A stretch of 46,514 nt of DNA from an uncultured Prevotellaceae bacterium (GTDB taxonomy: Bacteria; Bacteroidota; Bacteroidia; Bacteroidales; Bacteroidaceae): NCBI GenBank assembly GCA_900313705.1, contig OMSJ01000003.1, positions 1 through 46,514 of the forward strand, given 5' to 3'. A model generated the notes under the pieces. The model was not told the origin of the DNA, searched no databases, and saw only the letters and a list, made by a program, of their open reading frames with translations. The position numbers and the translations under genes are program-made. This document shows positions 2,992 to 46,514 of this stretch, in pieces. Numbering within the stretch: the stretch's first letter is position 1; every line of letters begins with the position of its first letter.

Positions 2992-4890
2992 GTGGTATCA
3001 TACTTACAGGCACAGAATCTGACGCGAAGCGTTGGTGACAAGACGCTTTTCCGTAATCTCTCATTCAGCATAGGCGAGGGACAGAAAGTGGGGCTCATCG
3101 CCAAGAACGGCACGGGCAAGAGTACGCTGCTGAACATCCTTGGCGGCAAGGACCAGGCAGACGAGGGGCAGGTCATCTTCCGGAATGACCTTCGCGTCGG
3201 CTACCTGGAGCAGACTCCCGACTATCCCCTTGACCTGACCGTCATCGAGGCTTGCTTCTGGCACGGCAACGAGACGACGAACCTCATCCGCGAGTACGAG
3301 ACCTGCATGGCATCCTCCAGTCAGGAGGGCTTGCAGGACATCCTGGACCGCATGGAGCAGCAGAAGGCCTGGGACTACGAGAACCGTGCCAAGACCATCC
3401 TCTCGCAGCTCTTCATCTCGGAGTTCGACAAGCCTCTCTCTCAGCTTTCCGGCGGACAGTTGAAGCGCGTGGCTCTTGCCAACACGCTCATCATGGAGCC
3501 CGACCTGCTCATCCTCGACGAGCCGACGAACCACCTCGACCTGCAGATGATAGAGTGGCTCGAGAACTACCTCTCGCGCTCCAACGTCACGTTGCTCATG
3601 GTGACGCACGACCGCTACTTCCTCGACCGCGTCTGCTCTGTCATCCTTGAGCTCGACGAAGAGTCCATCTATACCTATCATGGCAACTATGCCTATTACC
3701 TCGAGAAGCGTGCCCAACGCCTGGAGGTGGCGCGGGCAGAAGTGGCTCGGGCGACGAATCTCTACCGTACCGAGCTCGACTGGATGCGCCGTATGCCGCA
3801 GGCTCGCGGTCACAAGGCAAGGTATCGCGAGGAAGCTTTCTATGAACTGGAGAAGCAGGCTCATCGCCGCCTCGAGGAGCAGCAGGTGAAGCTCGAGATG
3901 AAGTCAGCCTACATCGGCAGCAAGATATTTGAGGCAGAGTATGTGAGCAAGGCCTACGGCGACCACATCCTGCTCAAGAACTTCTACTACAACTTCTCGC
4001 GTTACGAGAAGCTCGGCATCGTGGGCAATAACGGCACAGGCAAGAGCACTTTCGTCAAGATGCTGCTGGGGCTGGTGAAGCCCGACAGCGGACGCTTCGT
4101 CGTGGGCGAGACCGTCCGCTTCGGCTATTACAGTCAGGAGGGGATGCAGTTCGACGAGCAGATGAAGGTCATCGATGCTGTTCGCCGGACAGCGGAATAT
4201 GTTGACCTGGGCGGCGGGCAGAAGCTTTCGGCCATGCAGTTCCTGCAGCATTTCATGTTCTCGCCCCAGCAACAGCAGAACTACATCTACAAGCTTTCGG
4301 GCGGCGAGAAGCGGCGGCTCTACCTTTGCACCGTGCTGATGCAGAGCCCCAACTTCCTTGTCCTCGACGAGCCGACCAACGACCTCGACATCACCTCCCT
4401 GCAGATACTGGAGCAGTACCTTCAGGACTTCCGTGGCTGCGTCATCATCATCAGCCACGACCGTTACTTCATGGACAAGGTGGTTGACCATCTCTTTGTC
4501 TTCAAGGGCGACGGCGAAGTGAAAGACTTTCCCGGAAACTACACGCAGTACAGAAGCCTCACCCCCGACCCCTCTCCGAGGCGAGGGGAGAGTTCTCAGA
4601 AAACTCAGAATTCTCAGAAAACTCAGAATAATCAGAATATTCCGAACACTCCGAGCACTCAGAGAGAAAGGAAGCGCAAGCTCTCTTTCCGCGAGAAGCA
4701 GGAGTTCGAAGCTTTAGGAAAGGAGATAGATGAGCTTGAGCAGGAGAAGTCCGACATCGAGGCCGCCCTCAGCAGCGGCACCATTTCGACGCAGGAAATC
4801 ATCGACCTGAGCAAACGACTGCCCGTCGTCAACGACCTCCTCGATGAGAAGTCCATGCGTTGGCTTGAACTGAGCGAAATAGAGGGCTAA
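2992..4890 (+). CDS. ABC-F family ATPase, Uup-like, with C-terminal coiled coil
   Basis: This is a soluble protein with two ABC cassettes and no membrane segments, as in ABC-F factors that act on ribosomes or, for Uup, on DNA intermediates and ribosomes. Cassette 1 has Walker A GLIAKNGTGKST (about 34-45), signature LSGGQ (152-156) and DLLILDEPTNHLD. Cassette 2 has GIVGNNGTGKST, LSGGEKRR and NFLVLDEPTNDLD. A Lys/Glu-rich coiled coil (about 565-625) closes the protein, as in Uup. The start is GTG at 2992, preceded by AGAGG. The linker before the coiled coil (about 523-558) is a low-complexity segment, starting SLTPDPSPRRGES, encoded by an interspersed DNA repeat. The exact ABC-F subgroup is not certain. 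Confidence 0.9.
   Translation: MVSYLQAQNLTRSVGDKTLFRNLSFSIGEGQKVGLIAKNGTGKSTLLNILGGKDQADEGQVIFRNDLRVGYLEQTPDYPLDLTVIEACFWHGNETTNLIREYETCMASSSQEGLQDILDRMEQQKAWDYENRAKTILSQLFISEFDKPLSQLSGGQLKRVALANTLIMEPDLLILDEPTNHLDLQMIEWLENYLSRSNVTLLMVTHDRYFLDRVCSVILELDEESIYTYHGNYAYYLEKRAQRLEVARAEVARATNLYRTELDWMRRMPQARGHKARYREEAFYELEKQAHRRLEEQQVKLEMKSAYIGSKIFEAEYVSKAYGDHILLKNFYYNFSRYEKLGIVGNNGTGKSTFVKMLLGLVKPDSGRFVVGETVRFGYYSQEGMQFDEQMKVIDAVRRTAEYVDLGGGQKLSAMQFLQHFMFSPQQQQNYIYKLSGGEKRRLYLCTVLMQSPNFLVLDEPTNDLDITSLQILEQYLQDFRGCVIIISHDRYFMDKVVDHLFVFKGDGEVKDFPGNYTQYRSLTPDPSPRRGESSQKTQNSQKTQNNQNIPNTPSTQRERKRKLSFREKQEFEALGKEIDELEQEKSDIEAALSSGTISTQEIIDLSKRLPVVNDLLDEKSMRWLELSEIEG
4558..4665 (+). repeat. Interspersed repeat inside the ABC-F gene, in frame
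   Basis: The first part is a C-rich/G-rich hairpin (CCCCTCTCC ... GGCGAGGGGAG) that translates as LTPDPSPRRGE. The second is a run of ACTCAGAA-like units encoding a Gln/Asn/Thr-rich stretch. Both are typical of non-coding repeats, yet the frame stays open across them and the cassette and coiled coil on either side remain intact. Confidence 0.75.
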
Positions 4891-4934
4891 ATGAGAGAAA
4901 AGGATGAATTTTGCAACTTTTCTCCCTTTTCTTG

Positions 4935-4965
4935 TTGACATATTGAAATAAAAGTCCTACCTTTG
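4935..4965 (+). promoter_or_regulatory. Bacteroidetes-type promoter for asnA
   Basis: TACCTTTG at 4958-4965 matches the -7 consensus. A TTGTTGACA stretch about 20 bp upstream partly matches the -33 box. The leader to the asnA start is about 40 nt. Confidence 0.7.
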
Positions 4966-5006
4966 CATGAAAATTTGAAAGTATTACTGTCAAAACAAGG
5001 TAAACT

Positions 5007-6044
5007 ATGAGCAAACTTATGAAGCCTGCGGGATACACGGCGCTCTTGGACTTGAGCCAGACGGAGCAGGCGATTAAGAAGATCAAGGACTTCTTCCTTT
5101 GCAGCCTCAGTACCGAACTGCGTTTGAGCCGCGTCACAGCGCCGCTTTTCGTGTTGCGAGGCTTAGGCATCAACGACGACCTCAATGGCGTGGAGCGTCC
5201 CGTCTCGTTCCCCATCAAGGACATGAACGATGCCGTGGCCGAGGTGGTACACTCCTTGGCAAAGTGGAAGCGCCTGACGCTTGCCGAGTACAAGACGAAA
5301 CCAGGCTTCGGCATCGTCACCGACATGAATGCCATCCGTGCTGACGAAGAGCTCGACAACCTGCATAGCCTCTATGTCGATCAATGGGACTGGGAGCGTG
5401 TGCTCTTGGCCGAGAACCGCAACGAGGCATACCTGCGTCGCATCGTACAGAAGATATACAGCGCCATCCTTCGCACAGAGTTCTATATCTGCGAGACCTA
5501 TGCACAGCTCAAACCTATCCTGCCCGAGGACATCCACTTCATCCACAGTGAGGAGTTGCTGAAGATGTACCCCGACAAGACAGCCAAGGAGCGTGAGCAC
5601 CTCATCTGCCAGAAGTACGGAGCCGTCTTCATCATCGGCATTGGCGGCAAGCTGAGCAATGGCGAGGTGCACGACAACCGAGCTCCTGACTACGACGACT
5701 GGAGCACACCCAACGAGAGCGGCTTCATGGGGCTCAACGGCGACCTGCTTGTCTGGTATCCGATGCTGGGCCGCAGCATAGAACTCAGTTCTATGGGCAT
5801 CCGCGTCGATAAGGAAGCGCTGCTCCGCCAGCTTGCCATACAGGGCAAAGAGGAGCGCAAGGAGCTCTACTTCCACCAGCGCCTTCTTTCCGACCAGTTG
5901 CCTCTGACCATCGGCGGCGGCATCGGACAGAGCCGTCTCTGCATGGTGCTCCTCCACAAAGCCCACATCGGCGAGACACAGGCCAGCATCTGGCCCGAAG
6001 CCATGAGAAAGGAGTGTCACGAAGCAGGAATGACGCTGATATAA
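5007..6044 (+). CDS. asnA: Aspartate--ammonia ligase (asparagine synthetase A)
   Basis: AsnA makes asparagine from aspartate, ammonia and ATP, releasing AMP and pyrophosphate, in the cytoplasm. The 345-residue length is close to the E. coli enzyme (330). The sequence follows the family throughout: LSTELRLSRVTAPLFV near the N terminus, DDLNGVERPV, VHSLAKWKRLTL, DQWDWERV, and LPLTIGGGIGQSRLCM near the C terminus, which resembles motif 3 of class II aminoacyl-tRNA synthetases, the fold AsnA shares. It has its own promoter. A repeat element begins at its stop codon. The identification is firm. Confidence 0.96.
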   Translation: MSKLMKPAGYTALLDLSQTEQAIKKIKDFFLCSLSTELRLSRVTAPLFVLRGLGINDDLNGVERPVSFPIKDMNDAVAEVVHSLAKWKRLTLAEYKTKPGFGIVTDMNAIRADEELDNLHSLYVDQWDWERVLLAENRNEAYLRRIVQKIYSAILRTEFYICETYAQLKPILPEDIHFIHSEELLKMYPDKTAKEREHLICQKYGAVFIIGIGGKLSNGEVHDNRAPDYDDWSTPNESGFMGLNGDLLVWYPMLGRSIELSSMGIRVDKEALLRQLAIQGKEERKELYFHQRLLSDQLPLTIGGGIGQSRLCMVLLHKAHIGETQASIWPEAMRKECHEAGMTLI

Positions 6045-6130
6045 GTGAAGAGTGAAAAGTGAAGAATAATAGTAACCAACCAGACAAAAGTAACTTTGAT
6101 TCTTCACTCTTCGTTCTTCACTCTTCACTT
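6045..6130. repeat. Intergenic hairpin-type interspersed repeat (GTGAAGAGTGAAAAG type)
   Basis: The element starts with GTGAAGAGTGAAAAGTGAAG and ends with the mirrored TTCTTCACTCTTCACTT, giving a long imperfect hairpin around an AGTAAC-containing centre. A related copy lies inside the next gene (7083-7175): both share GAAGAATAA, AGTAAC and ATTCTTCAC blocks in the same order. It occupies almost the whole gap between asnA and the receptor gene. Confidence 0.75.
6091..6098 (+). promoter_or_regulatory. Possible -7 promoter box carried by the repeat
   Basis: TAACTTTG fits TAnnTTTG and lies 55 bp before the receptor start codon, inside the repeat element. No TTTG is found at the expected -33 distance, so this is a weak call. 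Confidence 0.4.
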
Positions 6131-6153
6131 AATTATTTATAATTAATTAATCA

Positions 6154-8340
6154 ATGTACAACAAACATCAGGACAGGCCAGCCGTCTTCACTTGGAGGCA
6201 ATTCTCCAACAAGGGTTACAGCGCCTTCGCCAGTCTTCATCGTCAGGTACGCATCGGCATCCTCAGCGCCGCTACGCTCGCCGTGGCAGCTCAGGCTCAT
6301 GCTCGGCTCAACGACAGCGTCGTTGTCCCTGCCGACGAGAAGGAGACCATCGACGAGAAGGACTTGGCGGAAGTGACTGTGAGCGGCACGATGGCCCCGC
6401 TGACGCAGTTGCAGTCAGCACGTATCGTGAGTGTACTTAGCCGTCAGGACATCGAGCAGGCGGCGGTGCAAAGTATCAACGACCTCTTTAAGTTAGTCAC
6501 CGGCGTGGACGTCCGGCAGCGCGGTGGCTTTGGTATTCAGACGGACATCAGCATCGATGGCGGCACCTTCGACCAGGTCACCCTCCTGCTCAACGGCATC
6601 GACATCGGCAATCCCCAGACAGGACACTTATCGGCAGACTTCCCCGTCAGCATCGGCGACATCGAGCGCATCGAGGTGCTCGAGGGCGCGGCCAGTCGCG
6701 TCTATGGCGGGCAGAGCTTCGGCGGCGCCATCAACATCGTCACGCGGCACGAAGCAGACCACAGCATCGAACTTGCTGCCAAGGGCGGTTCCTTCGGCAC
6801 AGCAGAGGGCGAGGCTCGTTTTTCTCTCACGACAGGCAAGTTCTCGAACCGCATCAGCGGCGGAGGCGGCAGGAGCGACGGAGGCACACAGAACAGCTCT
6901 TGGGGCAAAGGGCAGCTCTACTATCAGGGCGACTACGAAGACGACGGCTTGCGGCTCGACTGGCAGTTCGGCTTCTCGAAGAAGAGCTACGGAGCCAACA
7001 CGTTCTACAGCGCCAGCTACCCCGACCAGTACGAGCGCAACCAGCGCCTCATGGCAAGCGTCGATGCTGAGTATAAAGTATGGAGTGAAGAACGAAGAGA
7101 GAAGAATAAAAGTAACTATATGAAGGACGAAACAAACTCTAATTCTTCACGCTTCACTCTTCACTCTTCACTCTTTTGGAACCGTTCCAACGATAACTTC
7201 GAGCTCATCCACGGCCAGACTTTCGGCGAGAACTTCCACCGCTCGGACGTCTTCGGCATCAAAGCAGGAGGCCACTTCGACTGGGTTGCCGGCAGGACAG
7301 CAGTTTCGGCAATCATGCGCCACGAGAACATCCTCAGCACAAACCTTGGCTGCAATCGCCGACCGGAAGGAAGCTTTTACACGTGGAGCGACAACCGAAC
7401 CACCACTTCCTTCTCGGTCGAGCACAACATCCTGCTGAGGCATTGGACCATCTCGGCAGGCCTCATGGCAAGCATGACTTCGGCCATCGACCACCGCTTC
7501 CGCCTCTATCCCGGCATCGACATAGCCTGGCGACCTGCTTCCCGCTGGAAGCTGCTCTTCTCCTACAACAAAGGCTTCCGTCTGCCCACCTTCACCGAAC
7601 TCTACTACAAAAGCCCGACGCATGAAGGCAACCGCAGCCTCAAACCTGAGCACAACCACACCTTCTCGCTCGGCGGGCAGTACGTTGCACCTGGCCTGAG
7701 CGCATCCATCAGAGGCTTCTACCACCACGGCACGCAGATGATAGACTGGGTGATGTATGCGCCCGACGACATCTTCCACACCGCTTCCTTCCGGCTCGAC
7801 AACCTCGGCCTTCAGGTTCAGGGCAAAGCCTCCTTCGCTCAGCTCCTCGGGCACGACACCTGGGTGCAGACCGCCAGCATAGGCTATACGTACATCCATC
7901 AGGACAAGCACGATGCCGAGGGCGTCTGGAAGAGCAACTATGCCATGGAATACCTGCGCCACAAGTTCGTGGCGAGCCTAACGCATCGCATAATAAAAAG
8001 TAAAAGGGTAAAAAGGTTAAAAGGTGAAAAAGAAAAAGGCTGTGCGAAGCTTTTTCAATTTTTCAACGTTTCACCTTTTCAACTTTCAATGACCTGGGAC
8101 TTTCGTTGGCAGCAGCGCATAGGCAGCTACGTGAGTGGCGGCGAGCTCATCCCTTATCATCCCTATGCCATCCTCGACGCTAAACTTATGTGGGACGCAC
8201 CGCGCTACCAACTTTACGTGCAGGCATCCAACCTCACCAATCATCGCTACCGCGACCTCGGCTCAGTTCCCCAGCCCGGCCTCTGGGTCATGGCAGGAGC
8301 AAAGGTGAAGATGGAAATAGGAAATAGGAAACGCAGATAA
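6154..8340 (+). CDS. TonB-dependent outer-membrane receptor, BtuB-like
   Basis: This is an outer-membrane beta-barrel that takes up a scarce ligand using TonB energy. After a long signal region (about 1-50), a short stretch with EVTVSGT leads into the plug domain (about 75-195: ARIVSVLSRQDIEQAAVQS, DLFKLVTGVDVRQRGGFG, ERIEVLEGAASRVYG, GAINIVT), followed by a barrel with RWKLLFSYNKGFRLPTFTEL and a C-terminal strand region. The plug and the FxRWSNKxY-like leader resemble Bacteroidetes cobalamin-type (BtuB-like) receptors, but no ligand can be assigned and no B12 genes or riboswitch are visible. Two stretches (about 310-341 and 613-645) are encoded by interspersed DNA repeats and lie between barrel strands. 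Confidence 0.88.
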   Translation: MYNKHQDRPAVFTWRQFSNKGYSAFASLHRQVRIGILSAATLAVAAQAHARLNDSVVVPADEKETIDEKDLAEVTVSGTMAPLTQLQSARIVSVLSRQDIEQAAVQSINDLFKLVTGVDVRQRGGFGIQTDISIDGGTFDQVTLLLNGIDIGNPQTGHLSADFPVSIGDIERIEVLEGAASRVYGGQSFGGAINIVTRHEADHSIELAAKGGSFGTAEGEARFSLTTGKFSNRISGGGGRSDGGTQNSSWGKGQLYYQGDYEDDGLRLDWQFGFSKKSYGANTFYSASYPDQYERNQRLMASVDAEYKVWSEERREKNKSNYMKDETNSNSSRFTLHSSLFWNRSNDNFELIHGQTFGENFHRSDVFGIKAGGHFDWVAGRTAVSAIMRHENILSTNLGCNRRPEGSFYTWSDNRTTTSFSVEHNILLRHWTISAGLMASMTSAIDHRFRLYPGIDIAWRPASRWKLLFSYNKGFRLPTFTELYYKSPTHEGNRSLKPEHNHTFSLGGQYVAPGLSASIRGFYHHGTQMIDWVMYAPDDIFHTASFRLDNLGLQVQGKASFAQLLGHDTWVQTASIGYTYIHQDKHDAEGVWKSNYAMEYLRHKFVASLTHRIIKSKRVKRLKGEKEKGCAKLFQFFNVSPFQLSMTWDFRWQQRIGSYVSGGELIPYHPYAILDAKLMWDAPRYQLYVQASNLTNHRYRDLGSVPQPGLWVMAGAKVKMEIGNRKRR
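7083..7175 (+). repeat. Interspersed repeat inside the TonB receptor gene, first site
   Basis: GAGTGAAGAACGAAGAG to CACTCTTCACTCTT forms the same inverted arrangement as the intergenic element at 6045-6130 and shares its GAAGAATAA, AGTAAC and ATTCTTCAC blocks. It is translated in frame as a Lys/Ser/Asn-rich stretch between two predicted barrel strands. Confidence 0.8.
7991..8089 (+). repeat. Interspersed repeat inside the TonB receptor gene, second site
   Basis: The left half repeats AAAAGGTTAAAAGGTGAAAA and the right half mirrors it (TTTCACCTTTTCAACTTTC). It resembles the intergenic tract at 14474-14553. It is translated as KSKRVKRLKGEKEKG and what follows, between strands ending in LTHRI and beginning with MTWDFRWQQRIG. 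Confidence 0.75.
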
Positions 8341-8456
8341 CTCTGCTTTCTGTGGGCTCCGCCTGCAGCAAGGCATTCACCATCTGCCGTGGGCAAGACA
8401 CCCGCGTACCATGTTTACAAGTTCCGCTTGCGACAGATACTTTTGCCGAATGGCGT

Positions 8457-8560
8457 GCTTAGAAATTATTTTCAAGGCTTGAAAATATATAATCAAGCCT
8501 TGAAAATATATAACCAAACCTTGAAAATATATTTTCAAGCCTTGAAAATAATTTCTAAGC
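8457..8560. repeat. Tandem palindromic array, 21-22-bp period (CAAGCCTTGAAAATATAT)
   Basis: Four units start at 8473, 8494, 8515 and 8537, each with a CAAGGCTTG-like palindromic core followed by AAAATATAT. The outer 21 bp are perfect inverted repeats (8457-8477 and 8540-8560), so the whole array could fold into one hairpin. It fills the middle of the 357-bp gap between the receptor gene and the amidase gene. No gene is recognised in the rest of the gap. Confidence 0.8.
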
Positions 8561-8658
8561 GTGTTGCTTCGGGTTACGCAAATGGGCAAAAAGAGTTTCT
8601 TCCCTTGCCTTTTTTCATTTTTCATACTTTTATTCTTTCATACTTTCTTTTTTCTTTG

Positions 8659-8666
8659 TACCTTTG
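8659..8666 (+). promoter_or_regulatory. Bacteroidetes-type promoter for the amidase gene
   Basis: TACCTTTG lies 31 bp before the chosen ATG, with TTTC 19 bp upstream (one mismatch from TTTG). It supports starting the gene at 8698 and not at in-frame codons further upstream inside the repeat array. Confidence 0.7.
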
Positions 8667-8697
8667 CACTCGGAAATCAATCTTTAGAATCCCTGAC

Positions 8698-9435
8698 ATG
8701 AAACGATACCTTACCACGGTTCTTCTCACGCTATGCTGCCTGACGGCCTTGCCCTTCACGCTTGTCATCGATGCAGGGCACGGGGGAAAAGACCCTGGGG
8801 CTCAATGCCGAACAGCAAAGGAGAAGAACATCAACCTGGCCGTGGCACTTGCGCTGGGCAAACTGGTGGAGCAGAACTGCAAGGACGTGAAGGTGGTCTA
8901 TACGCGCAAGACGGATGTCTTCGTCGAACTGGACGAGCGTGCCAACATCGCCAACCGCGCCAAGGCCGACCTCTTCATCAGCATCCACACGAATGCTACT
9001 GCTGCCAAGGTGGGGCCTCGCGGCGCTGAGACCTACACCCTCGGTATGCACCGTGCTGCCGATAACCTCGCTGTGGCCAAGCGCGAGAACTCCGTCATCA
9101 CCCTGGAGAGCAACTATGAGCAGCGCTATGAGGGCTTCGACCCGAACTCCAGCGAGAGCTACATCATCTTCGAACTCATGCAGGACAAGAACATGGAGAG
9201 CAGCGTCAAGCTGGCCGGACTCATACAGAAGCAGTTCCGCACCACGGCGGGCCGCGTGGACAAGGGCGTGCACCAGGCAGGCTTCCTCGTGCTCCGCGCC
9301 ACCAGTATGCCAAGCGTCCTGGTGGAGCTCGGCTACATCAACAACCCCAGCGATGTGACTTACCTCACCTCGACGGCTGGCGTGAATGCCCTCGCCAAGA
9401 GCATCTACAACGCTTTCGTGGCGTACAGGAAGTGA
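8698..9435 (+). CDS. N-acetylmuramoyl-L-alanine amidase (Amidase_3)
   Basis: This is a zinc amidase that cleaves the bond between MurNAc and the peptide stem in peptidoglycan, as in daughter-cell separation. The 245-residue protein has a short hydrophobic signal (about 1-19), then VIDAGHGGKDPGA (first zinc His about 28), a Glu in the TAKEKNINLA region as second ligand, LFISIHTNAT (third ligand) and VLVELGYINN with the catalytic Glu. It is one catalytic domain without SPOR or LysM modules. The frame stays open upstream to 8389, but that part is repeat array and promoter, so the ATG at 8698 is preferred. The MCE gene follows after 37 bp and may share the transcript. Confidence 0.92.
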   Translation: MKRYLTTVLLTLCCLTALPFTLVIDAGHGGKDPGAQCRTAKEKNINLAVALALGKLVEQNCKDVKVVYTRKTDVFVELDERANIANRAKADLFISIHTNATAAKVGPRGAETYTLGMHRAADNLAVAKRENSVITLESNYEQRYEGFDPNSSESYIIFELMQDKNMESSVKLAGLIQKQFRTTAGRVDKGVHQAGFLVLRATSMPSVLVELGYINNPSDVTYLTSTAGVNALAKSIYNAFVAYRK

Positions 9436-9472
9436 ACGGTAAATGGTTAAATGATTAAAAGGTAAATGTGAG

Positions 9473-10360: not shown

Positions 10361-10383
10361 CTCCAGAACTTCAGATATAAAAA

Positions 10384-10448
10384 AACGGATTGAACGGATT
10401 TACGTTTTACTCTGATTGCCAGAGTCGCGTAAATCCGTTCAATCCGTT
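10384..10448. terminator. 21-bp perfect inverted repeat between convergent genes
   Basis: Arms 10384-10404 and 10428-10448 are exact complements (core AACGGATTGAACGG / CCGTTCAATCCGTT) around a 23-nt loop. It lies in the 104-bp gap where the MCE gene and the glutaminase-like gene converge and is preceded by an A-run. It may end both transcripts, but it may also be a copy of an interspersed repeat. Confidence 0.6.
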
Positions 10449-10464
10449 GTTGCTTATGTGACTG

Positions 10465-14473: not shown

Positions 14474-14553
14474 GATTAACGATTTACTTTTTTACTCTTT
14501 CACCTTTTCACCTTTTTACCTTTTCACTTTTTTACCTTTTCACCTTTTTACAG
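14474..14553. repeat. TTTTCACCTTTTTACC-type low-complexity tract
   Basis: About ten imperfect units of TTTTCACC/TTTTTACC fill the gap between two leftward genes. On the minus strand the TAA stop of the upstream gene is directly followed by AAAGGTGAAAAGG. Related sequence is found inside the TonB receptor gene at 7991-8089. Confidence 0.7.
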
Positions 14554-15777: not shown

Positions 15778-16527
15778 TCACTCTCTATATTCCTTATATA
15801 TATAATAGAGGAACTTCGCGTTGCCGATGATGTACCGCCGCCACATGCGTTGCGGTTCCATCAGCAGGCGATAGAGCCATTCCAGCGAGTTCCTCTGCCA
15901 ACCAAGCGGTGCCCGCTTCACTGTGCCGGCATAGAAGTCGAACACCGCACCGATGGTCCCGCAGTGACAGTGGATGTTGAGCTCGTCCCAATGGCTGTAG
16001 GTCCACTTCTCCTGCTTAGGAGCCGTCATGCCTATCCACAGCAGGTCCGGATCAGCATTGTTGATGGCCTTTATCATAGCTTGGTTGTCCTCGTCGGAGA
16101 ATTCCGGCTTGTAGGGTGGTGAGTAAGTAACTACCTCCAGGTTAGGGTAATCAACCGCAGCCCGTTCTCTTATCAGCGACAGCACCTTCTCGCTCGAACC
16201 CATGAACATCACTATAAGACATTTTTCACTCTTCACTCTTAATTCTTCACTTTTCCTTTCGAGAACATTCATCTCAAAAGAAAACAAATCCCATCCTGCA
16301 ATCCTCTCCTTCGGCCGGCTCTTTGCCTTCAGCCACCGGCACGCCTTGACGATTGACGTGCCATCGGGAATCAGGTAGTCCCCCTTGCTGAGGGCTTCAG
16401 CAAACGCCTCGTCCCTCTGCGCCGTATTGTAGGAGTGCGCATTGATGGTATTGATGAGCACCTTGCCTTCAGGGATGTTTCCAAGTTCTGCCTGCGAACA
16501 TACGATGTTCAGATTATTGAGTTTCAT
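15778..16527 (-). CDS. WecG/TagA/CpsF family glycosyltransferase
   Basis: Enzymes of this family (GT26) move N-acetylmannosamine-type sugars onto a lipid-linked acceptor during cell-surface glycan assembly. The 249-residue protein carries the family marks: INTINAHSYNTAQRDEAF near the N terminus, LIPDGTSIVKACRWL, a middle GSSEKVLSLIRERA and DPDLLWIGMTAPKQEKW. Its start overlaps the upstream GT4 stop by one base (TAATG). Residues about 91-102 (RKSEELRVKSEK), between ERIAGWDLF and CLIVMFMGSSEK, are encoded by a copy of the GTGAAGAGTGAAAA repeat; family members usually go nearly directly from one to the other here. Confidence 0.92.
   Translation of the reverse strand: MKLNNLNIVCSQAELGNIPEGKVLINTINAHSYNTAQRDEAFAEALSKGDYLIPDGTSIVKACRWLKAKSRPKERIAGWDLFSFEMNVLERKSEELRVKSEKCLIVMFMGSSEKVLSLIRERAAVDYPNLEVVTYSPPYKPEFSDEDNQAMIKAINNADPDLLWIGMTAPKQEKWTYSHWDELNIHCHCGTIGAVFDFYAGTVKRAPLGWQRNSLEWLYRLLMEPQRMWRRYIIGNAKFLYYIYKEYRE
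16222..16260 (-). repeat. Interspersed repeat inside the WecG/TagA gene
   Basis: On the minus strand this is a run of AAGTGAAGAATTAAGAGTGAAGAG-like units, the same motif as the asnA-receptor intergenic element. It encodes about 12 charged residues and keeps the reading frame. Confidence 0.75.
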
Positions 16528-27480: not shown

Positions 27481-27555
27481 TATTTGTGTGATTAAAACCT
27501 GAAATAGGGGGAACTTGACATGCCTGACTGTCAAAAGCGACGTGCCTGGTTTGAC

Positions 27556-27687
27556 AACTACGTGGACTTGTTTGAATAACTACGTGTACTTATTGAGCTA
27601 ACTACGTGTACTTATTGAGCTAACTACGTGTACTTATTGGGCCAAGTACGTGTACCTATTTGGCCAAGTAGCTCTGTACTTGTTTTG
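27556..27687. repeat. Tandem array of six 22-bp units (AACTACGTGTACTTATTGAGCT)
   Basis: Units start at 27556, 27578, 27600, 27622, 27644 and 27666, exactly 22 bp apart. The middle copies are near-identical and the outer ones diverge. The core AAGTACGTGTACTT (seen as AACTACGTGTACTT in most units) is nearly palindromic and is shared, in the opposite orientation, with the array at 39749-39836. The array lies upstream of the polysaccharide promoter and downstream of the GH16 gene. No gene was seen in this 343-bp gap. Confidence 0.85.
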
Positions 27688-36110: not shown

Positions 36111-36114
36111 ACTG

Positions 36115-39687: not shown

Positions 39688-39709
39688 GATTATTTATTAT
39701 GATAATCCG

Positions 39710-39717: not shown

Positions 39718-39748
39718 CCCCTTGCTCCCTTCTCTGGGAAGGGGTTAG

Positions 39749-39836
39749 ATAAGTACCCGTACTTATGGGGATAAGTACACGTACTTACGTGGATAAGTAC
39801 ACGTACTTATGGCGACAAGTACACGTACTTTTTTCC
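39749..39836. repeat. Tandem array of four 22-bp units (AAGTACACGTACTT core)
   Basis: Units start at 39749, 39771, 39793 and 39815, exactly 22 bp apart. Each contains AAGTAC-nn-GTACTT, a perfect 6-bp palindrome with a 2-bp centre. The same core (read as AAGTACGTGTACTT on the other strand) and the same 22-bp period occur at 27556-27687. The array lies between the DUF4827 gene and the hemW promoter. It is not a CRISPR array: there are no distinct spacers. Confidence 0.85.
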
Positions 39837-39873
39837 ATAGGGTAATTTAGCGGATTATCATATTGTACTGGCA

Positions 39874-40581: not shown

Positions 40582-40603
40582 GTGTGATTCTTTGTTTCGA
40601 CGG

Positions 40604-40634
40604 CAAAGGTACGACTATTAATTCATATTTCAAA
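40604..40634 (-). promoter_or_regulatory. Promoter for the DUF4827 gene
   Basis: Minus-strand TACCTTTG (40611-40604) and TTTG (40634-40631) are 19 bp apart, a full consensus pair. The -33 box overlaps the last codons of the GH76 gene upstream. The leader is about 20 nt. Confidence 0.8.
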
Positions 40635-43600
40635 ACTTAATCACAATCTTCTTTCCTTTTACGATGTTGATTCCTCTCATCGGTTTGTTTAGACGCTGAC
40701 CGGAGAGGTTATAATACGGACTATCTGCTGCCGGCAACAGATTGTCTTCCTGTGAGAAGGTTGGGGTGAGGCTGATTCCTGTCGGGTCAACGGGCTCCAT
40801 GGAGAGCAGTTGTACTTCTCCTATCTGAATTTGATTGGCCCCGCATGTTGCAGTAATGGTGAGGCGGTAGGTGGTGAACTGGTCGTTGGCCATCGACCAT
40901 AAGCCGTTTGGCATGTAGAACTGAGTGGCATAGCGGTTAGAGAAGCTCTGCCCCTGTCGGCTGTCGAGTGGTGTCCATGTGTTGCCATCGTTGCTGCCTT
41001 CGAGTATCCAGTCTGCAGGGTCGCGTGTTGGCTCGTTCTTGCTCGCGGTGATGCTGTATGCGTTGATGCTGACGGGCTGATTGTAAGTGAAGGTGATGCT
41101 GACAGGCTCGGTGAAGGCTGCTCGATAGCAAGTGGTGCGGCTGCCGTCGTTGATGCGACCTATGAGCTCTGTGTTTGAGAGCCCGACAGCCGTGGCATCG
41201 ACGGTAGCAGGTGCGACGAGGCTCTGGTCATCCGTCTCAGCAATGGCTGTTCCGTAGAGTTCGAAGTCTGCAAGGCGTACGCCTGCTTCTGCATCATTAT
41301 TTACTTGAAGCTTGAAGCGCTTGAAGAGTTTCACAGATGATGTCGTATAGGTAAGACGGGAACCGCGGGCGGGGAAGGCTGTTGCTTTGGTGGAAAGCAG
41401 GATTTCTGTACCGTCCTCTTCATAGCCGTATAGTGTAATGTCCTGCGGGTCAAGTTCTGCATCGTTTGCGCTAAGGAGAGAGTAGCCAATCACCCTGACG
41501 GGCAATGGTGTGCCGAAGTCCCAATAGCGATTGCTGCCATTGATGGTGGCGTAGGTAGTTCCGTCGTCGTCTATGAGAGGTAAAGCATCGCTGCCGTCGC
41601 CGGATACGATGGTGGCAATGCCTGTAATGTCGGCATAGAATGTACCGAAGTCAGGCTTGCCGAAGAGCTGCCACTGAGTGGTTTCTGCCCCTTCGTCGTT
41701 AACCGTAAGGCGATAATGGAGGTAGGACGTGCCCGGGTTGATAAGATAGACGTTTGTGGAGTTGTCGTATGGGAAGACGGCTTCGGTCTGTTGGTCGATG
41801 AGCTTCCATGTCGTGCCGTTTGCCGAGCCTTCAAGCTTCCATGATGCGGGGGCCTTTGATGCTTCGCTTATGGAAATGCTATAGGCAGAAAGCATGTAGT
41901 TGCCTGCGGGATTGTAGGTGACGGAGAATGGGGTGGTGAGAGATGTCGTGCCGACGTGGTCGATGAGTGCTTGGAGAGCGTCGTCCTGAGAGGGACTGAC
42001 AAGACTTCCGCCGTCTGCGGTCAGGTCGAAGTCATCAATGCAGCGGCCCAGCAACTGCCATTCGGAGACAGAGAGCTTTGTCTGTGTCTCGTAGCAGTCG
42101 AAGAGCATACGGTAGTGGGTGTAGGCTTTTGTGGGTTGAATCAGGGCGCTGTAGCGTTCAGCGTGAACGGTGAAGGTCGTATCGGGTTCCTCGTGAAGCG
42201 TTTCCCATTCCTTGCCGTCGTCAGAGCCTTGAAGCTTCCAGCCTTTCGGGTCGCTGTTGTCAGCGTTGCCGGAGAAGAACTGGTAGCCATAGAGAAGCAT
42301 GGGTGAAGGACTGTTGTATTGTATCCATGTCTCGGTGCCAGTTTCAATGTCAGCAGTTACAGCCGTGGTCAGGTCATCGTCTGTTAGGGCAGAGGCATCG
42401 TCAGCAGTAAAGGAAGTGGTGAGGGTTCCTCCGCCATTGGTGAGGTCGGCATAGACAGGGTTGAGACTATGGAACTGCCACCAGTTGATATTGGTTTTCC
42501 CTGTGCCTGCGGAGACAAAATAGATATTGTGAATGCCTGTGACGGGCTGGTTAATCATCTTGCGGATGGTTCCCCAGGTCTTGAGTCCGTCCAGTTCGTT
42601 GCCTTTGACGGAGCAGAGTAGGATGCCGTCTTTGGTGTTCGGCTGGTCAAGGAATACATTGATGCCTGTCGTGTTGAGGGTAATGTTCAGACGCATATCG
42701 ATGTGTGAGGCGGGTTTGTTGCCGAAGTCAACACGTCGGTAGCCGATGTAGTTGGTGTTCTTCATTGGGCCGACCATGCCGCCTCCATTTTCGTCGGTGC
42801 AGGCATCGTAGGTGACAGGGGCATTGCGTACGAAGTTGAAGTCCTCAGCCTCGTTCATGGCGTATGCGTCGTGGCTTTCGACGGCTCCCAGATGACAGTT
42901 GAAGGCAGCCGAGACGCATGTCATGTTGCCGTCGTTGCCAAAGTTCTTGTATTCGTCGCCCTCTTTGTGCTTGAAGTCCTCTTCTGCTTTTGTGAGCCAT
43001 GCAGATGACGTAATGCCGGCAGAGTTACGGTTGTTCCAGGCATGGTAGGCATTCTTGGCAATCCATGCGTAATGCGATGGGGCGTTGAAGCTTTCGGCAT
43101 ACATGCGAATGTAGCGTAGCATGATGCCTTTGAAATTGGTGAGGTCACCCGAGACGGTCTGGCAGACGTGTATGATGCCTTTCGAGTTTGCCATGTTTGC
43201 TTCGGACCATTTGAGGATGGCATCAGCATCGTCCTTGAACATCTGCTCTCCGTAGTGATTGTAGAGCATAATGGCAGCTCCGAGGTTTGTCCCCTGGTTG
43301 TATGTTGAGCACCACTTGTTGTAGTTGCCGCTGTTCTGGTCGTAGCTGTCCCAGACAGCGCCTGTTGGCTTGCCGTTGGACATTTCGAAGAGTGTGCTGC
43401 GTTCAGCCATGTATGTCTTGCGTGCTTTCTGGTAGTAGCTTGTGTCAGCTTGGGCGATGGCGAGGTAGCAGGCGCAGACAGCAGCCGGTCCGTTGATGCA
43501 TGAGGTAGTGCCTTTCCCGCTGTTGTGCTTCCACTGCAGGAGGTCGTTGCCGTAGCAGTCGGCGCGTTTGAACATGCCGTCGAAGTTCTTCTTGGCTGTT

Positions 43601-44448
43601 GTCTTGTACTTTGCGACGCCAGTCAGCAGATAGGCACGGACGCAAGCGATGCACATCCATGCGATGTCGTCGTTGTATTCGTTGTAGCCGCTGACGCCTT
43701 GCTGATACCATGTATCCTTGTTGCGTGCGATGAAGTTCGTGTAGAGGTTCTCGAACATGGTGGCATATTGTTGGTCGCCTGTTGTCTCGAGTGCATCAAG
43801 GACCACCTCGAACATCTCTGCATCGCCCCACCATCCGCCGTTGCCGATGACGTAGCCCGTGCTTGCTTTCTTGTAGGCGCGAGCCTTCCATTTCTCCATC
43901 ATGTCGTCGCGCTTGTCCTTCGTGAACTCGCGTGCCATAGGCTCTACTACTTCTACGGTCCACGTGATGCGTGCAGGGTCGAGGTTAGTCGCAGTGGCGG
44001 TATTGACGATGGTCAGCTTGCCGCCGTCTGTGGACTCTGCTGGAGCGGCAAGGGCGTACTTGCGTGTTGTGCCTTGATAGATATAGTACTGATTGTCGGT
44101 ACCTTCGACGGGGACAAATTCCCAAGAGCCTTTGCTGTTGGCTCCTGTCCTGTTTGTCTGGCCGACGTTGCCCGAAGAGCCAGAGGTGAGGCCGGCGAGG
44201 TAGAAGCCGGTGTAGTCGTTGGAGAGGAGGAAGGTGCCGTTGGTCTTTGCATTAAGCGTCCAGCGCTGTGCGTTGACGTTGGTTTCCGTCCAGAGAACAG
44301 CATTCTTGTTCTCGTCGAGCGATGAGTTTTCCACGAAGACTGACTTCCCGTTGTTGATGAGGCGAATGGTTTGCTCTGCCTCGAGTGCATAAGCGGAGAA
44401 GGTCGGTGCCAGTAAAGTAAAAGTGAGAAGAAGACGAGTTAGCTTCAT
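40630..44448 (-). CDS. Multidomain GH76 protein (alpha-1,6-mannanase type) with carbohydrate-binding domains
   Basis: This secreted enzyme of 1272 residues has a signal peptide (about 1-21). A ricin-like beta-trefoil follows (about 25-168), then the GH76 domain (about 175-535) with the paired catalytic aspartates Asp260-Asp261 in GYNEYNDDIAWM. Next come a CBM6-like domain (about 533-665, starting NEAEDFNF) and four discoidin (F5/8 type C, CBM32-like) repeats (about 668-1215) with recurring WKLQGS, WKLEGS and WILEGS motifs. It ends in YNLSGQRLNKPMRGINIVKG, the Prevotella-type C-terminal tail seen in many secreted proteins. GH76 enzymes cleave alpha-1,6-mannan, as in fungal cell walls. A complete promoter lies upstream. 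Confidence 0.9.
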   Translation of the reverse strand: MKLTRLLLTFTLLAPTFSAYALEAEQTIRLINNGKSVFVENSSLDENKNAVLWTETNVNAQRWTLNAKTNGTFLLSNDYTGFYLAGLTSGSSGNVGQTNRTGANSKGSWEFVPVEGTDNQYYIYQGTTRKYALAAPAESTDGGKLTIVNTATATNLDPARITWTVEVVEPMAREFTKDKRDDMMEKWKARAYKKASTGYVIGNGGWWGDAEMFEVVLDALETTGDQQYATMFENLYTNFIARNKDTWYQQGVSGYNEYNDDIAWMCIACVRAYLLTGVAKYKTTAKKNFDGMFKRADCYGNDLLQWKHNSGKGTTSCINGPAAVCACYLAIAQADTSYYQKARKTYMAERSTLFEMSNGKPTGAVWDSYDQNSGNYNKWCSTYNQGTNLGAAIMLYNHYGEQMFKDDADAILKWSEANMANSKGIIHVCQTVSGDLTNFKGIMLRYIRMYAESFNAPSHYAWIAKNAYHAWNNRNSAGITSSAWLTKAEEDFKHKEGDEYKNFGNDGNMTCVSAAFNCHLGAVESHDAYAMNEAEDFNFVRNAPVTYDACTDENGGGMVGPMKNTNYIGYRRVDFGNKPASHIDMRLNITLNTTGINVFLDQPNTKDGILLCSVKGNELDGLKTWGTIRKMINQPVTGIHNIYFVSAGTGKTNINWWQFHSLNPVYADLTNGGGTLTTSFTADDASALTDDDLTTAVTADIETGTETWIQYNSPSPMLLYGYQFFSGNADNSDPKGWKLQGSDDGKEWETLHEEPDTTFTVHAERYSALIQPTKAYTHYRMLFDCYETQTKLSVSEWQLLGRCIDDFDLTADGGSLVSPSQDDALQALIDHVGTTSLTTPFSVTYNPAGNYMLSAYSISISEASKAPASWKLEGSANGTTWKLIDQQTEAVFPYDNSTNVYLINPGTSYLHYRLTVNDEGAETTQWQLFGKPDFGTFYADITGIATIVSGDGSDALPLIDDDGTTYATINGSNRYWDFGTPLPVRVIGYSLLSANDAELDPQDITLYGYEEDGTEILLSTKATAFPARGSRLTYTTSSVKLFKRFKLQVNNDAEAGVRLADFELYGTAIAETDDQSLVAPATVDATAVGLSNTELIGRINDGSRTTCYRAAFTEPVSITFTYNQPVSINAYSITASKNEPTRDPADWILEGSNDGNTWTPLDSRQGQSFSNRYATQFYMPNGLWSMANDQFTTYRLTITATCGANQIQIGEVQLLSMEPVDPTGISLTPTFSQEDNLLPAADSPYYNLSGQRLNKPMRGINIVKGKKIVIKF

Positions 44449-44477
44449 ATTGTTATTGAATTAAGTGTAAGACAGGA

Positions 44478-44508
44478 CAAAGTTAATGCTTTTTTGCCGT
44501 AATCCAAA
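44478..44508 (-). promoter_or_regulatory. Promoter for the GH76 gene
   Basis: Minus-strand TAACTTTG (44485-44478) with TTTG (44508-44505) exactly 19 bp upstream. The leader is about 30 nt. Confidence 0.8.
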
Positions 44509-44523
44509 GGATTGGACATAATT

Positions 44524-45450
44524 TTATGTGTTTTCTGCTCCGCAATGTGGACATTTGCCCAGGCTTTGCATTCTTTTGCCGCAGGAACCGCAGATGTATC
44601 GTGCCCTTGAATGGCGGAAATAGCGCAGGAGGAGGATAAGGACGAAGAGTGCATAGAGGATGTAGCTGGCTCCCGGACTGAGGGCAGCCAGGGTGAAGAG
44701 CAGATAGCAGAGGATGCAGCAGCCGAGCAGGGACAGCAGATACATGAAGCCTTCCCCCGTGGGAATTTGCCTGAGGACTTCATCTATTGTGGCAATAGCC
44801 AGGACCAGGAGTAGCCAGACGGAGCACAGGAACAGGCTAAGGATAAGTGGAAGTCCGAAGGGGTTGAGCGTAGGGTGGTAGTAATAGAGCACCCACGTTT
44901 CGGGTACATAGTGCTGGATGCCTGCGTAGAGGAGAGCGGAAGCGGCAAGGGTGATGAGCAGGAAGGTGGGGTAGGGCGAGAGAATGTCGCGCAGGAAGAA
45001 GACGTGTGGCCGTTTGCTGCTAAACACCTGCCAAAGCAAGACTATCAGCGACAAGGCAAAGATGATGGCAAAGACTAAGAGATGCCGAACGCTGAAGAGG
45101 TGAATGAACTGCGATATGGGGTCGTCGGGCACAACGCTTTCGAGGAAGGTGCGTTGGTGAGTCCAGCCCATCGTGAACTGGTCGCGAGCCAGCTTTACCC
45201 ATACGCTGTCCACGGAGTCTTCGGGAATGATGAGCGTTTCAGCCACAACCAGTGGGTTGCCCAGATAGACGTTCATCTGTTCGCATGTGGTGTCGATGGG
45301 CTGGTTGTGCAGAGGCTGGCTGCTTTGCAAAGAGAGGCTATCGACACATAGCTCAAAGTTGTCTCCTACTGCATAGAGCGTGGCGTCCTTGTCCTGATAG
45401 TAGCAGGAGGCGAGGATAAACGTGAGTGGGAGTAGCCAGAGAGCTTTCAT
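44524..45450 (-). CDS. Membrane lipoprotein with C-terminal zinc ribbon
   Basis: The 308-residue protein has a lipoprotein-like signal (MKALWLLPLTFILASC, Cys16), an extracytoplasmic N-terminal domain (about 17-115, perhaps SH3-like around VWVKLARDQFTMGWTHQRT), four to six hydrophobic segments (about 120-285) and a C-terminal zinc ribbon CGSCGKRMQSLGKCPHCG. No function can be assigned; this architecture is seen in Prevotella relatives. I chose the ATG at 45450, 5 bases after the stop of the U32 gene, over a start 13 codons upstream which would overlap that gene and hide the signal. Confidence 0.75.
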   Translation of the reverse strand: MKALWLLPLTFILASCYYQDKDATLYAVGDNFELCVDSLSLQSSQPLHNQPIDTTCEQMNVYLGNPLVVAETLIIPEDSVDSVWVKLARDQFTMGWTHQRTFLESVVPDDPISQFIHLFSVRHLLVFAIIFALSLIVLLWQVFSSKRPHVFFLRDILSPYPTFLLITLAASALLYAGIQHYVPETWVLYYYHPTLNPFGLPLILSLFLCSVWLLLVLAIATIDEVLRQIPTGEGFMYLLSLLGCCILCYLLFTLAALSPGASYILYALFVLILLLRYFRHSRARYICGSCGKRMQSLGKCPHCGAENT

Positions 45451-45455
45451 GTCAG

Positions 45456-46514
45456 TCAGTCTTCTATTGCCTTTACTTTCATTTCGCATTTCTTGCAGTC
45501 GAATGCAAGGCGGAAGCGTCTGCCATCACCAAGAACAAGAAAGAGAGGCTCCCTCCATTTTTCGCTTTTCGCTTTTAACTTTTCACTTTCTCTAAGGCAT
45601 TGCCCCCAGGCATGTCTGAGGCAGAAGCGGCAGGTCATTAAGGGAGATTGAAGATTGAAGATTGAAGATTGAAAAGTGGCACGTTTATATAAGACGGGAT
45701 TATCTAAAGGCTTAGAAGAACTTTCAATTTTCAATTTTAAATTTTCAATTAGACTTCTTCTCCACTCGGCCAGCGTGCTGCGAGGAATGAACCAGGGCTG
45801 AGAGAAGCGCACTTCGACGTCTGTGCAGACGTAGGGCGTATCGCCAAGTTTGCTGAGGACTTCCTTTGTCGGGCCTGTTTGGTCGGTGCGGGCTGGTTGA
45901 TGCTCTGCGGGGAAGTCCTTGCTGCACGAGGTGCCGTCGTCGGCTGTGAAAGTCAGGCGGAATCCTTGTTCTGTCTCTTCGAGCAGGAAGCGGGCAGGGA
46001 TGCGTCGCTCTGCCGTTTTGCTGGCCATGAGGTCTTCCCATTGTTTGTCGTAGCTTCGCCAAAGCCGGTCGCCCTTTCTGGGTGAAGAGTGAGGCGTGAG
46101 GGGTGAAGAGTTAAAGTAGAGGTGGTTCCCTTCGGCACGGTTCACGCGGAAGCCCTGCAGATGGCCTTCCGCGTCGAAGAAGCAAAGCCCGTCGCCGTTG
46201 CTGAACACTTCTGTGGAGCTGACGATGATGCAGTCTCGCCGAACCTCTTTGACGTGTCCCACTTCGCGGCCTCTGCTCTTGGGTGTGTCGGGCGAGGCGA
46301 GGTCGTTTGTCCTGCCGTCGAGGAAGTACTCTGTGCTGCCCCTGGAGAAGCTGCGGGAGAGGTCGGGTGTGAAGTTGTAGGTGGAAGTGCCGTAGGAGGA
46401 GCGGACGAACTCTGTCCTTCTCTCCAGGATGGCATCGATGGCTTGCCGGTATGCGGCGGTCACGTTCTTGACGTAGCCTATGTCCTTCAGTCTTCCTTCT
46501 ATCTTGAAGCTTCT
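45456..46514 (-). CDS. U32-family peptidase-like protein (RlhA/PrtC type), C-terminal part, cut at window edge
   Basis: The frame is open to the last base of the window, giving 352 residues of a larger protein. The first residues, SFKIEGRLKDIGYVKNV, match the U32 family signature that precedes the C-terminal domain. Near the C terminus, cysteines in MTCRFCLRHAWGQC and FDCKKCEMKV form a likely metal site, and EPLFLVLGDGRRFRL lies between them. Family members include PrtC and RlhA (tRNA/rRNA hydroxylation); the precise role here is open. Three stretches are encoded by interspersed DNA repeats (45556-45598, 45645-45752, 46081-46117), all in frame. The N-terminal catalytic half lies outside the window. 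Confidence 0.85.
   Translation of the reverse strand, partial: RSFKIEGRLKDIGYVKNVTAAYRQAIDAILERRTEFVRSSYGTSTYNFTPDLSRSFSRGSTEYFLDGRTNDLASPDTPKSRGREVGHVKEVRRDCIIVSSTEVFSNGDGLCFFDAEGHLQGFRVNRAEGNHLYFNSSPLTPHSSPRKGDRLWRSYDKQWEDLMASKTAERRIPARFLLEETEQGFRLTFTADDGTSCSKDFPAEHQPARTDQTGPTKEVLSKLGDTPYVCTDVEVRFSQPWFIPRSTLAEWRRSLIENLKLKIESSSKPLDNPVLYKRATFQSSIFNLQSPLMTCRFCLRHAWGQCLRESEKLKAKSEKWREPLFLVLGDGRRFRLAFDCKKCEMKVKAIED
45556..45598 (-). repeat. Interspersed repeat inside the U32 gene, site 1
   Basis: The minus strand reads AAAGTGAAAAGTTAAAAGCG and similar units, encoding ESEKLKAKSEK between the Cys of GQC and EPLFLVLGDG. The tract matches the intergenic motif at 2881-2912. Confidence 0.7.
45645..45752 (-). 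repeat. Interspersed repeat inside the U32 gene, site 2
   Basis: Four GATTGAA(A) units at 45645-45675 face TTTCAATTTTCAATTTTAAA at 45722-45750, forming an inverted repeat around about 45 bases. The translation is a Lys/Leu/Ser-rich stretch between WRRSLIEN and PLMTCRFC. No frameshift results. Confidence 0.75.
46081..46117 (-). repeat. Interspersed repeat inside the U32 gene, site 3
   Basis: GGTGAAGAGTGAGGCGTGAG and its relatives encode SSPLTPHSSPRKG between HLYFN and DRLW. The DNA resembles the GTGAAGAGTGAAAAG family. Confidence 0.7.

Follow-up and report, generated by a model that had tools for sequence, protein, structure and literature searches.

Tandem-arm hairpins lying in frame in genes of a gut Prevotellaceae bacterium are likely gene-less copies of a variable PF05635 element

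Introduction

Rickettsia palindromic elements (RPEs) are palindromes of 105-146 bp that occur both between genes and, in frame, within conserved genes. The excerpts of PMC2229807 drawn on here count 19 reading frames, report a translated insert in a working enzyme for one gene, gmk, and mention in-frame palindromes in Wolbachia as well as in-frame fusions of enterobacterial repetitive intergenic consensus (ERIC) sequences. Here we describe hairpins of comparable behaviour in a window of 46,514 nucleotides, i.e., one whole contig (OMSJ01000003.1) from the genome of an uncultured Prevotellaceae bacterium (GCA_900313705.1, hereafter G000), a gut bacterium related to rumen Prevotellaceae. As far as those excerpts describe the RPEs and the Wolbachia palindromes, the likeness is one of behaviour: a palindrome lies in frame in unrelated protein genes and is absent from homologues, as we found here. 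The hairpins differ from RPEs in that their arms are tandem arrays of 7-8-bp units, and they belong to a different phylum. We know of no RPE whose ends recur around a gene for an intervening-sequence protein (IVP, family PF05635), whereas two of the hairpin families described here do share their ends with such a gene.

The second system of relevance is the intervening sequence (IVS) of 23S rRNA. In Coxiella, as excerpted from PMC4990558, the IVS has terminal inverted repeats, its S23p open reading frame (ORF) lies in sense, and a variable number of tandem GACAGAT heptamers precedes this ORF; the same excerpts cite the idea that the IVS ORF served mobility, and call the role of ORF-bearing rRNA intervening sequences unclear. 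In these excerpted traits, the elements reported below are alike, featuring a PF05635/S23p ORF within terminal inverted repeats (at most of the loci compared), sense orientation relative to the host transcript, and heptamers. However, the four G000 elements that were read in context lie between protein genes, outside rRNA, and here many copies are present per genome, along with ORF-less derivatives in protein genes.

Heptamers form direct repeats in other bacteria too, among them the cyanobacterial short tandemly repeated repetitive (STRR) sequences. TAACTGA heptamer repeats, found in Beggiatoaceae, Cyanobacteria and five Bacteroidetes, place a stop in each frame of one strand and are mostly intergenic (excerpts of PMC4679880). 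The arrays studied here also consist of 7-bp units that put a stop into every frame of one strand, yet they form inverted pairs around a loop or a gene. As far as the excerpted accounts go, ERIC sequences and miniature inverted-repeat transposable elements (MITEs) are similar in being small non-autonomous elements read as protein, and dissimilar in that neither a TA target nor a target duplication is evident here and that the arms are tandem arrays. Ends shared with a fuller element, by which a MITE is recognized, were seen in two families, the fuller (IVP) elements being themselves only putatively autonomous. Repetitive extragenic palindromic (REP) sequences and their REP-associated tyrosine transposases (RAYTs) likewise combine dispersed palindromes with a linked gene, but the two Y1 transposase genes considered here (L225 and L143) have other palindromes. 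The open-access literature, searched mostly with narrow phrases, yielded no paper that connects PF05635 with heptad arrays in Bacteroidota or mentions the peptides described below, and the joining of heptad arrays, in-frame palindromes and an IVS-type gene appears to be new.

Results

Family-A hairpins share their ends with an element carrying an IVP gene

In family-A hairpins, a loop (GAATAAAAGTAAC..GTAACTCTGATTC) separates a purine heptad arm from the pyrimidine arm that follows. Within the window the family is represented by the intergenic element at 6044 and, in diverged form, by site 1 of a TonB-dependent receptor gene. In the genome as a whole (2.83 Mb in 185 contigs, 80.5% complete), the right end of the family occurs at 31 places with at most 3 mismatches, while the reversed pattern gave none. 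A shorter probe found 42 places in G000 and 33 in the related genome G020, and had a match in 25 of 101 genomes (G000 included), all of them of one genus, as compared to 0 of the 40 genomes outside it.

On contig C84 of G000, two family-A right ends stand ~457 bp apart in inverted orientation, and the ORF between them matches PF05635 (E 1e-21), the family of the 23S rRNA intervening-sequence protein, a four-helix bundle; the C84 protein is a relative of the solved structure 2rld. The ends of this element are GAGTGAAGAATCAAAGTAACC and GGTAACTCTGATTCTTCACTC. Its right end equals that of the hairpins and its left end is one base off AATAAAAGTAAC, the loop start of short hairpins, which the orthologous element of G008 carries exactly. 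These common ends suggest a source for the hairpins, a point that lies beyond the original prediction, i.e., an earlier reading of the window from its letters, which had likened its repeats to the RPEs.

PF05635 matches were found in 50 of 61 genomes (G000 included, with 12 of its own) and in 75 of the 99 Bacteroidota genomes drawn. Their flanks were compared by aligning the upstream flank to the reverse complement of the downstream flank, with a threshold score of at least 20. The loci comprised the best match of each of 30 genomes and 20 that were hand-picked, partly for an adjoining family-A end (G036 C6, G008 C58, G030 C6 and also G000 C84); one scoring pass took 51 of 52 loci, and the following count covers only those with full flanks. 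Inverted arms flanked 39 of 46 PF05635 loci (37 of 44 distinct loci, as G008 C46 and G036 C119 were each counted twice), compared to 5 of 313 size-matched ORFs. By group, arms were present at 35 of 38 loci of the genus and at 4 of 8 in other families of the order. Of 42 aligned pairs, 26 had 7 and 11 had 8 as the best period of their upstream arm (37 of 42), and the unit varied by locus but was common to both arms. Across the phylum, 8 of 27 PF05635 loci reached the threshold versus 9 of 702 swapped pairs (3 of 30 loci were left out for short flanks); the layout is wider than the genus and not universal at this sensitivity. Moreover, the IVP gene is co-directional with both of its neighbours in 34 of 42 cases, as compared to 125 of 305 for control ORFs and 12 of 26 for PDDEXK_3 genes.

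Element sites are occupied in one species and empty in another

Eight of the 12 IVP sites of G000 were looked up in relatives. Four have a counterpart in the sister species G035, and all four are shorter there, namely pta-ackA (by 467 bp), ychF-lgt (466 bp), pheT-yebC (549 bp) and tkt (transketolase)-rpiB (444 bp); of the other four, one is occupied in G008 and three gave no counterpart among the sequences compared. G000, G008, G020 and G030 all carry the element at pta-ackA, and the empty spacer of G035 retains ACTCTTCACT, which is either an old target or a footprint. In the four G000 elements read in context, the arm begins at or a few bases past the upstream stop codon (one includes the stop) and runs to just short of the next start. 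This presence and absence at orthologous sites suggests that the elements are mobile. The position of the arrays between co-directional genes, such as those of the four pairs above, would also fit regulatory RNA hairpins retained for operon balance, with in-gene copies being accidental. Yet in a relative that shares this gene order the sites are empty, and many in-gene copies obey a frame rule (see below), making this explanation very improbable.

The link between hairpin ends and an IVP gene recurs in a second family, found in G035. Its ends, GAATGAAGAATTTGCTACCGC (with at most 4 mismatches), flank the IVP gene of L327. With ends 43-79 bp apart, in-frame copies of the family occur in MetH, an AIRS-domain protein and an AcrB-type protein; in addition, a one-ended copy is located in a long ORF without a family. 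At a tolerance of 4 mismatches in 21, there were 26 matches, counting mirror pairs. Those in L193, L170, L147 and L146 fall in long ORFs with the expected peptide, and at that in L189 another frame is open, for 79 and 192 codons. Methionine synthase (MetH) contains an in-frame hairpin in both G000 (L214) and G035 (L193:6047-9784), from different families.

In-gene copies keep one frame and replace its stop codon

Half of the 32 distinct family-A places of G000 (30 loci) lie within ORFs that are open for at least 60 codons on both sides. The 16 coding hosts are an RsmF-like methyltransferase, an AddB-like protein, a family-2 glycosyltransferase with DUF4922 (two copies), DNA polymerase I (PolA), CobT, a 7TM-HD protein, aspartate-semialdehyde dehydrogenase, IleRS, HisH, PheT, MetH, another ABC-F protein, aspartokinase-homoserine dehydrogenase, PrmC and UvrA (names are best NCBIfam or Pfam matches, several of them from ORFs cut by the locus end and below the curated cut-off). 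This supports the original prediction, which called for a search for copies in both coding and intergenic positions. Among hosts with a G035 orthologue for comparison, the orthologue lacks the insert in 7 of 7 cases: TonB site 1, IleRS, UvrA, PheT, the AddB-like protein and, twice, the glycosyltransferase.

All 16 in-ORF places of G000 share one orientation and frame (VKSEELRVKNKSN..NSDSSLFTLHSSL). In G020, where 20 stretches with 25 distinct places were read, 6 of 7 in-ORF places do so, the seventh being a mirror match of the L261 hairpin, itself one of the six; most of the single loci of other genomes (L234, L237, L240 and L256) also conform. The rule follows from the unit length: as 7 equals 1 modulo 3, each reading frame through an unbroken GTGAARA arm meets a TGA every 21 bp, while no frame of the pyrimidine arm (FTLHSSL) does. 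When the coding copies of G000 and G020 were pooled, the codon slot of the recurrent stop held TGA in 0 of 34 instances (TTA 17, CTA 10, CGA 3, others 4). By contrast, TGA was kept in 66 of 77 instances in the other two phases of the coding copies, and in 12 of 20 in non-coding copies (Fisher test, 4e-7 for coding versus non-coding and 2e-19 for the slot versus the other phases). The intergenic element at 6044 retains TGA in the slot of the coding frame.

We considered whether the same-frame rule is a sign of design, a notion weakened by the finding that the 16 coding copies of G000 have only 3 further open frames over the element body; survival alone can therefore explain the rule. As an ORF by definition has no in-frame stop, we place the weight on homology on both sides of the inserts, which shows that the host genes are real and continuous. 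Given the open frames, this flanking homology and the stop replacement, we predict that the in-gene inserts yield additional loops in the translated proteins.

Inserts in the window and their counterparts in relatives

The seven in-gene and three intergenic sites of the original prediction are all present at coordinates given by Tandem Repeats Finder (TRF) or other repeat analysis (Table 1). The in-gene sites lie in genes for an ABC-F protein, a TonB-dependent receptor, WecG and a U32 peptidase with DUF3656, each with an open frame and a matched Pfam domain; the U32 ORF is open to the contig end, i.e., cut by its edge. The view that one hairpin family accounts for all sites did not hold, as units, periods and loops differ, and the window contains several repeat families. 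Inverted pairs were confirmed only for both TonB sites and for U32 45645-45750, but WecG, U32 45559 and U32 46080 have single arrays. The ABC-F site is made of a C-rich element (4557-4591), a separate repeat type found at 18 places in the genome when up to 3 mismatches are allowed (0 for the reversed control), followed by a 9-bp array (4595-4663). The proposed likeness to the Rickettsia elements stands at the level of mode of working.

Table 1. Repeat elements of the window, with positions in the 46,514-nucleotide stretch
Feature	Position	Strand	Remarks
Intergenic GTGAAAA-type heptad array	2879..2910	+	TRF period 7, score 50
C-rich element and 9-bp array in ABC-F linker (SLTPDPSPRRGE..)	4557..4663	+	separate repeat type
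Family-A hairpin between asnA and TonB receptor gene, directly 3' of the asnA stop	6044..6129	+	inverted 7-bp arrays, loop AATAATAGTAAC..AAAGTAACTTTGATT
Diverged family-A hairpin, in frame, TonB receptor site 1	7073..7175	+	net insert ~residues 309-331, flanked on each side by a predicted beta strand
8-bp (AAAAGGTG-type) hairpin, in frame, TonB receptor site 2	7994..8089	+	residues ~616-642
Intergenic hairpin of 9-bp units (AACGGATTG), type seen around some PDDEXK_3 genes	10371..10461	.	gene-less
Intergenic 8-bp array (TTTACCTT)	14483..14551	+	TRF, 8.6 copies
Single heptad array, in frame, WecG (KSEELRVKSEK)	16225..16255	-	
Single heptad array, in frame, U32 peptidase (SEKLKAKSEK)	45559..45589	-	
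Inverted pair of AGATTGA/TTTCAAT heptads, in frame, U32 peptidase	45645..45750	-	
Single pyrimidine heptad array, in frame, U32 peptidase (NSSPLTPHSSP)	46080..46114	-	

The TonB receptor was compared with its matches in named genomes, which are metagenome-assembled genomes labelled Bacteroidaceae, Prevotellaceae or Bacteroidales, several of them rumen-derived. At site 1 (26 named loci), diverged copies with indels of 3 and 6 nt were found in L039, L040 and L045, and another short insert in L056; the remaining 22 have no insert, one of them (L064) showing heptad-like sequence without net gain. At site 2, covered by 25 loci, the insert is present in L039, L040 and L043, other short inserts occur in L044, L047, L056 and L064, and 18 have none. 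The alignments thus bear out the expectation that the segments would be absent from most TonB homologues, with flanks intact and lengths that differ between species in threes; neither conservation of the segments in distant homologues nor a lack of further genomic copies was seen.

The two sites are not inherited together, as L043 has site 2 only and L045 site 1 only. The site-2 insert is 98/99 identical to that of L043, yet the flanking coding sequence is only 0.77-0.81 identical, pointing to recent transfer, short-tract recombination or re-insertion at one spot. A search for a source of the site-2 loop elsewhere in G000 found no other genomic copy of it there. In an AlphaFold2 model of the receptor (39 homologues, mean pLDDT 74.7), both inserts fall between neighbouring beta strands, with pLDDT below 50 at residues 313-331, 621-627 and 630-638; they are predicted to be poorly ordered turns.

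The ABC-F linker, the WecG loop and the U32 loops are filled differently in many relatives. Among four aligned relatives, the WecG loop is shorter in L055 and of different sequence in L160, L046 and L043. At the first U32 site of Table 1, relatives vary and may have other tandem units, e.g., NGKWLNGKW in L067 and L068; at the last, they have NSSLFTLHSS (L068), NSNLIKSNFK (L067) or a short PAEMPD-type loop. The U32 loop gave no convincing match, other than itself, among the sequences compared. Since TonB (L039-L064) and U32 (L066-L094) loops are filled by different tandem-unit families in different species, some protein turns may be recurrent landing places.

Predicted RNA folding energies were well below those of shuffled sequences for 6042-6131 (z -6.9) and TonB site 1 (z -5.1), moderately so for TonB site 2 (z -3.0) and weakly so for the U32 pair (z -1.8); the hairpin at 10371-10461 reached z -10.6. 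An Rfam search of the window returned no matches. Three further sets of repeats were observed in the window: two period-22 arrays of near-palindromic units (AAGTACACGTACTT) at 27555-27667 and 39748-39830, mutually inverted 12 kb apart; a period-21 array with strong internal inverted symmetry (TCAAGCCTTGAAAATATATAA) at 8452-8560, 3' of the TonB receptor gene; and a 127-nt direct duplication of 93% identity (573-699 and 748-874) bearing 8-bp ACTCCTTA-type arrays.

Tandem arrays across the genome

In 593 kb of G000, TRF rows numbered 183 at period 7, 65 at period 8, 69 at period 9 and 60 at period 22, versus 0, 0, 3 and 0, respectively, in a first-order Markov control; units of 1-6 bp gave only two rows in all. 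These densities are high estimates, as the sample was drawn in part from contigs with heptad matches (the first 20 G000 stretches). A 21-nt heptad pattern occurs at 276 places in the genome with at most 3 mismatches, as compared to 105 for the reversed pattern. An inverted partner was found no more than 140 bp away for 73 of 232 arrays, versus 1 of 232 when flanks were shuffled. By greedy longest-ORF calls, made without a gene finder, 117 of 262 merged arrays lie between ORFs, 73 at their edges and 72 inside. G035 shows the same periods, with AAGAATG instead of AAGAGTG as the leading unit; units therefore turn over by species.

Such a load raises the possibility that the arrays are microsatellites born of slippage, reflecting a 7-8-bp habit of the polymerase and no mobility, with hairpins made by template switching and IVP genes merely tolerating the arrays. 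The many units of one period with almost none of 1-6 bp, the change of leading unit between the two species and the 21-bp steps in coding arms (e.g., L196) all fit this scenario. It is nevertheless unlikely, as the loop sequence is conserved among dispersed family-A copies, the ends are common to the hairpins and the IVP gene element, and the empty sites are shorter by 444-549 bp. In addition, inverted flanks occur at only 8 of 316 small (size-matched) ORFs, and 4 of the 8 are IVP or PDDEXK_3 genes (three and one, respectively), the others being a Y1 transposase, a MutS-domain stretch, a UPF0227 gene and one ORF without a family.

PDDEXK_3 genes within 9-bp arms, and Y1 transposases

Genes of PF13366 (PDDEXK_3), which we take to be the GxxExxY nuclease, present a parallel layout, with inverted flanks at 20 of 27 loci (3 of 30 having been left out for short flanks) versus 22 of 702 controls. 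In 13 of the 20, both arms had 9 as the best period (e.g., units of AACGGATTA), some being weakly repetitive; others look like plain inverted repeats. The 9-bp unit pair of the window hairpin at 10371-10461 recurs at 55 genomic places, two of them being this hairpin (control, 0), and similar arms flank PF13366 genes in L374, L376 and L377, and also, below threshold, in L373. These flanks, and the plausibility of a nuclease as a homing enzyme, would accord with the PDDEXK_3 nuclease being the mobility enzyme of all tandem-arm elements and the IVP being cargo or an RNA-binding helper. However, the IVP arms mostly have a period of 7 or 8 and not 9, PF13366 is matched in 35 of 61 genomes versus the 50 with PF05635, and G035 has IVP genes and hairpins with no PF13366 match, so that we regard a general role of this nuclease as decidedly unlikely.

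Y1_Tnp matches were found in G000 (L225 and, weakly, L226) and in the G035 sample (L143), raising the question of whether the hairpins, like REP elements, are mobilized by a RAYT or an IS200-type Y1 transposase. The IS200-like Y1 gene of L225 (1380-2040) is flanked by GCCCTGAAAGGGC palindromes, likely its own REP elements; the gene upstream of it is presumably trpB. As both L225 and L143 are flanked by GC-rich palindromes of their own and not by heptad arrays, we rejected a Y1 transposase as the driver, its probability being slight indeed.

Discussion

Family-A hairpins are likely internally deleted, non-autonomous copies of a PF05635 element whose presence varies between genomes and whose ends they share, and where they lie in genes they are predicted to be translated. 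In the mechanism we propose, the full element would be an inverted pair of 7-8-bp tandem arrays around an IVP gene, inserted mostly in sense between co-directional genes, possibly via RNA or single-stranded DNA. Loss of the IVP gene would leave an arm-loop-arm hairpin, and loss of one arm a solo array. A copy landing in a gene would survive only in the one orientation and frame that we observed, and only with its in-frame TGA replaced; its effect on the host protein would be near-neutral. The IVP may move the element, stabilise its RNA or ride along. The solo arrays of WecG and U32 and the octad TonB hairpin fit this model by unit and layout only.

Several observations weigh against this interpretation. 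Arms at the threshold were lacking at 7 of the 46 PF05635 loci (one, L321, has arms by eye, masked by its open frame), at half of the eight loci outside the genus and at 19 of the 27 loci compared phylum-wide. The shared-end link holds for two families only, and none of the other sequences or IVP ends compared matched the loops of U32 and TonB site 2. Outside G000 and G020, the frame rule has exceptions in L235, which is read on the opposite strand, and in L242, a half element in another frame. In-gene inserts replace a few residues and have no clean landing, which blurs their junctions. No target duplication is evident by eye at the junctions of TonB site 1 and the IVP sites, where flanks are replaced and arm lengths vary. 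The sequence comparisons revealed no enzyme activity, excision or movement event, and we know of no catalytic role of PF05635. Furthermore, the parallel layout around PDDEXK_3 genes means that the IVP may be a passenger, a reading we take seriously, and the orientation bias may mean only that the IVP needs read-through transcription.

A broader proposal, possible and put forward tentatively, is that Bacteroidota harbour a new, phylum-wide class of small mobile elements, tandem-arm hairpin elements, in which 7-8-bp arms enclose a four-helix-bundle IVP gene or 9-bp arms a GxxExxY nuclease gene. Such elements would insert in sense into transcribed regions via an RNA or single-strand step, renew both arms together, and give rise to gene-less copies that persist as permanent components of housekeeping enzymes.

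With its many copies and empty sites, the present system makes the idea that an IVS ORF serves mobility testable. The inserts explain odd low-complexity segments (KSEELRVK, SSLFTLHSSL, NEEFATA) that could otherwise be mistaken for native protein sequence in this group of bacteria. Among unrelated genes, they reach enzymes of protein synthesis and DNA repair, and the hairpins constitute a natural experiment on essential enzymes taking up foreign loops of some 20-50 residues.

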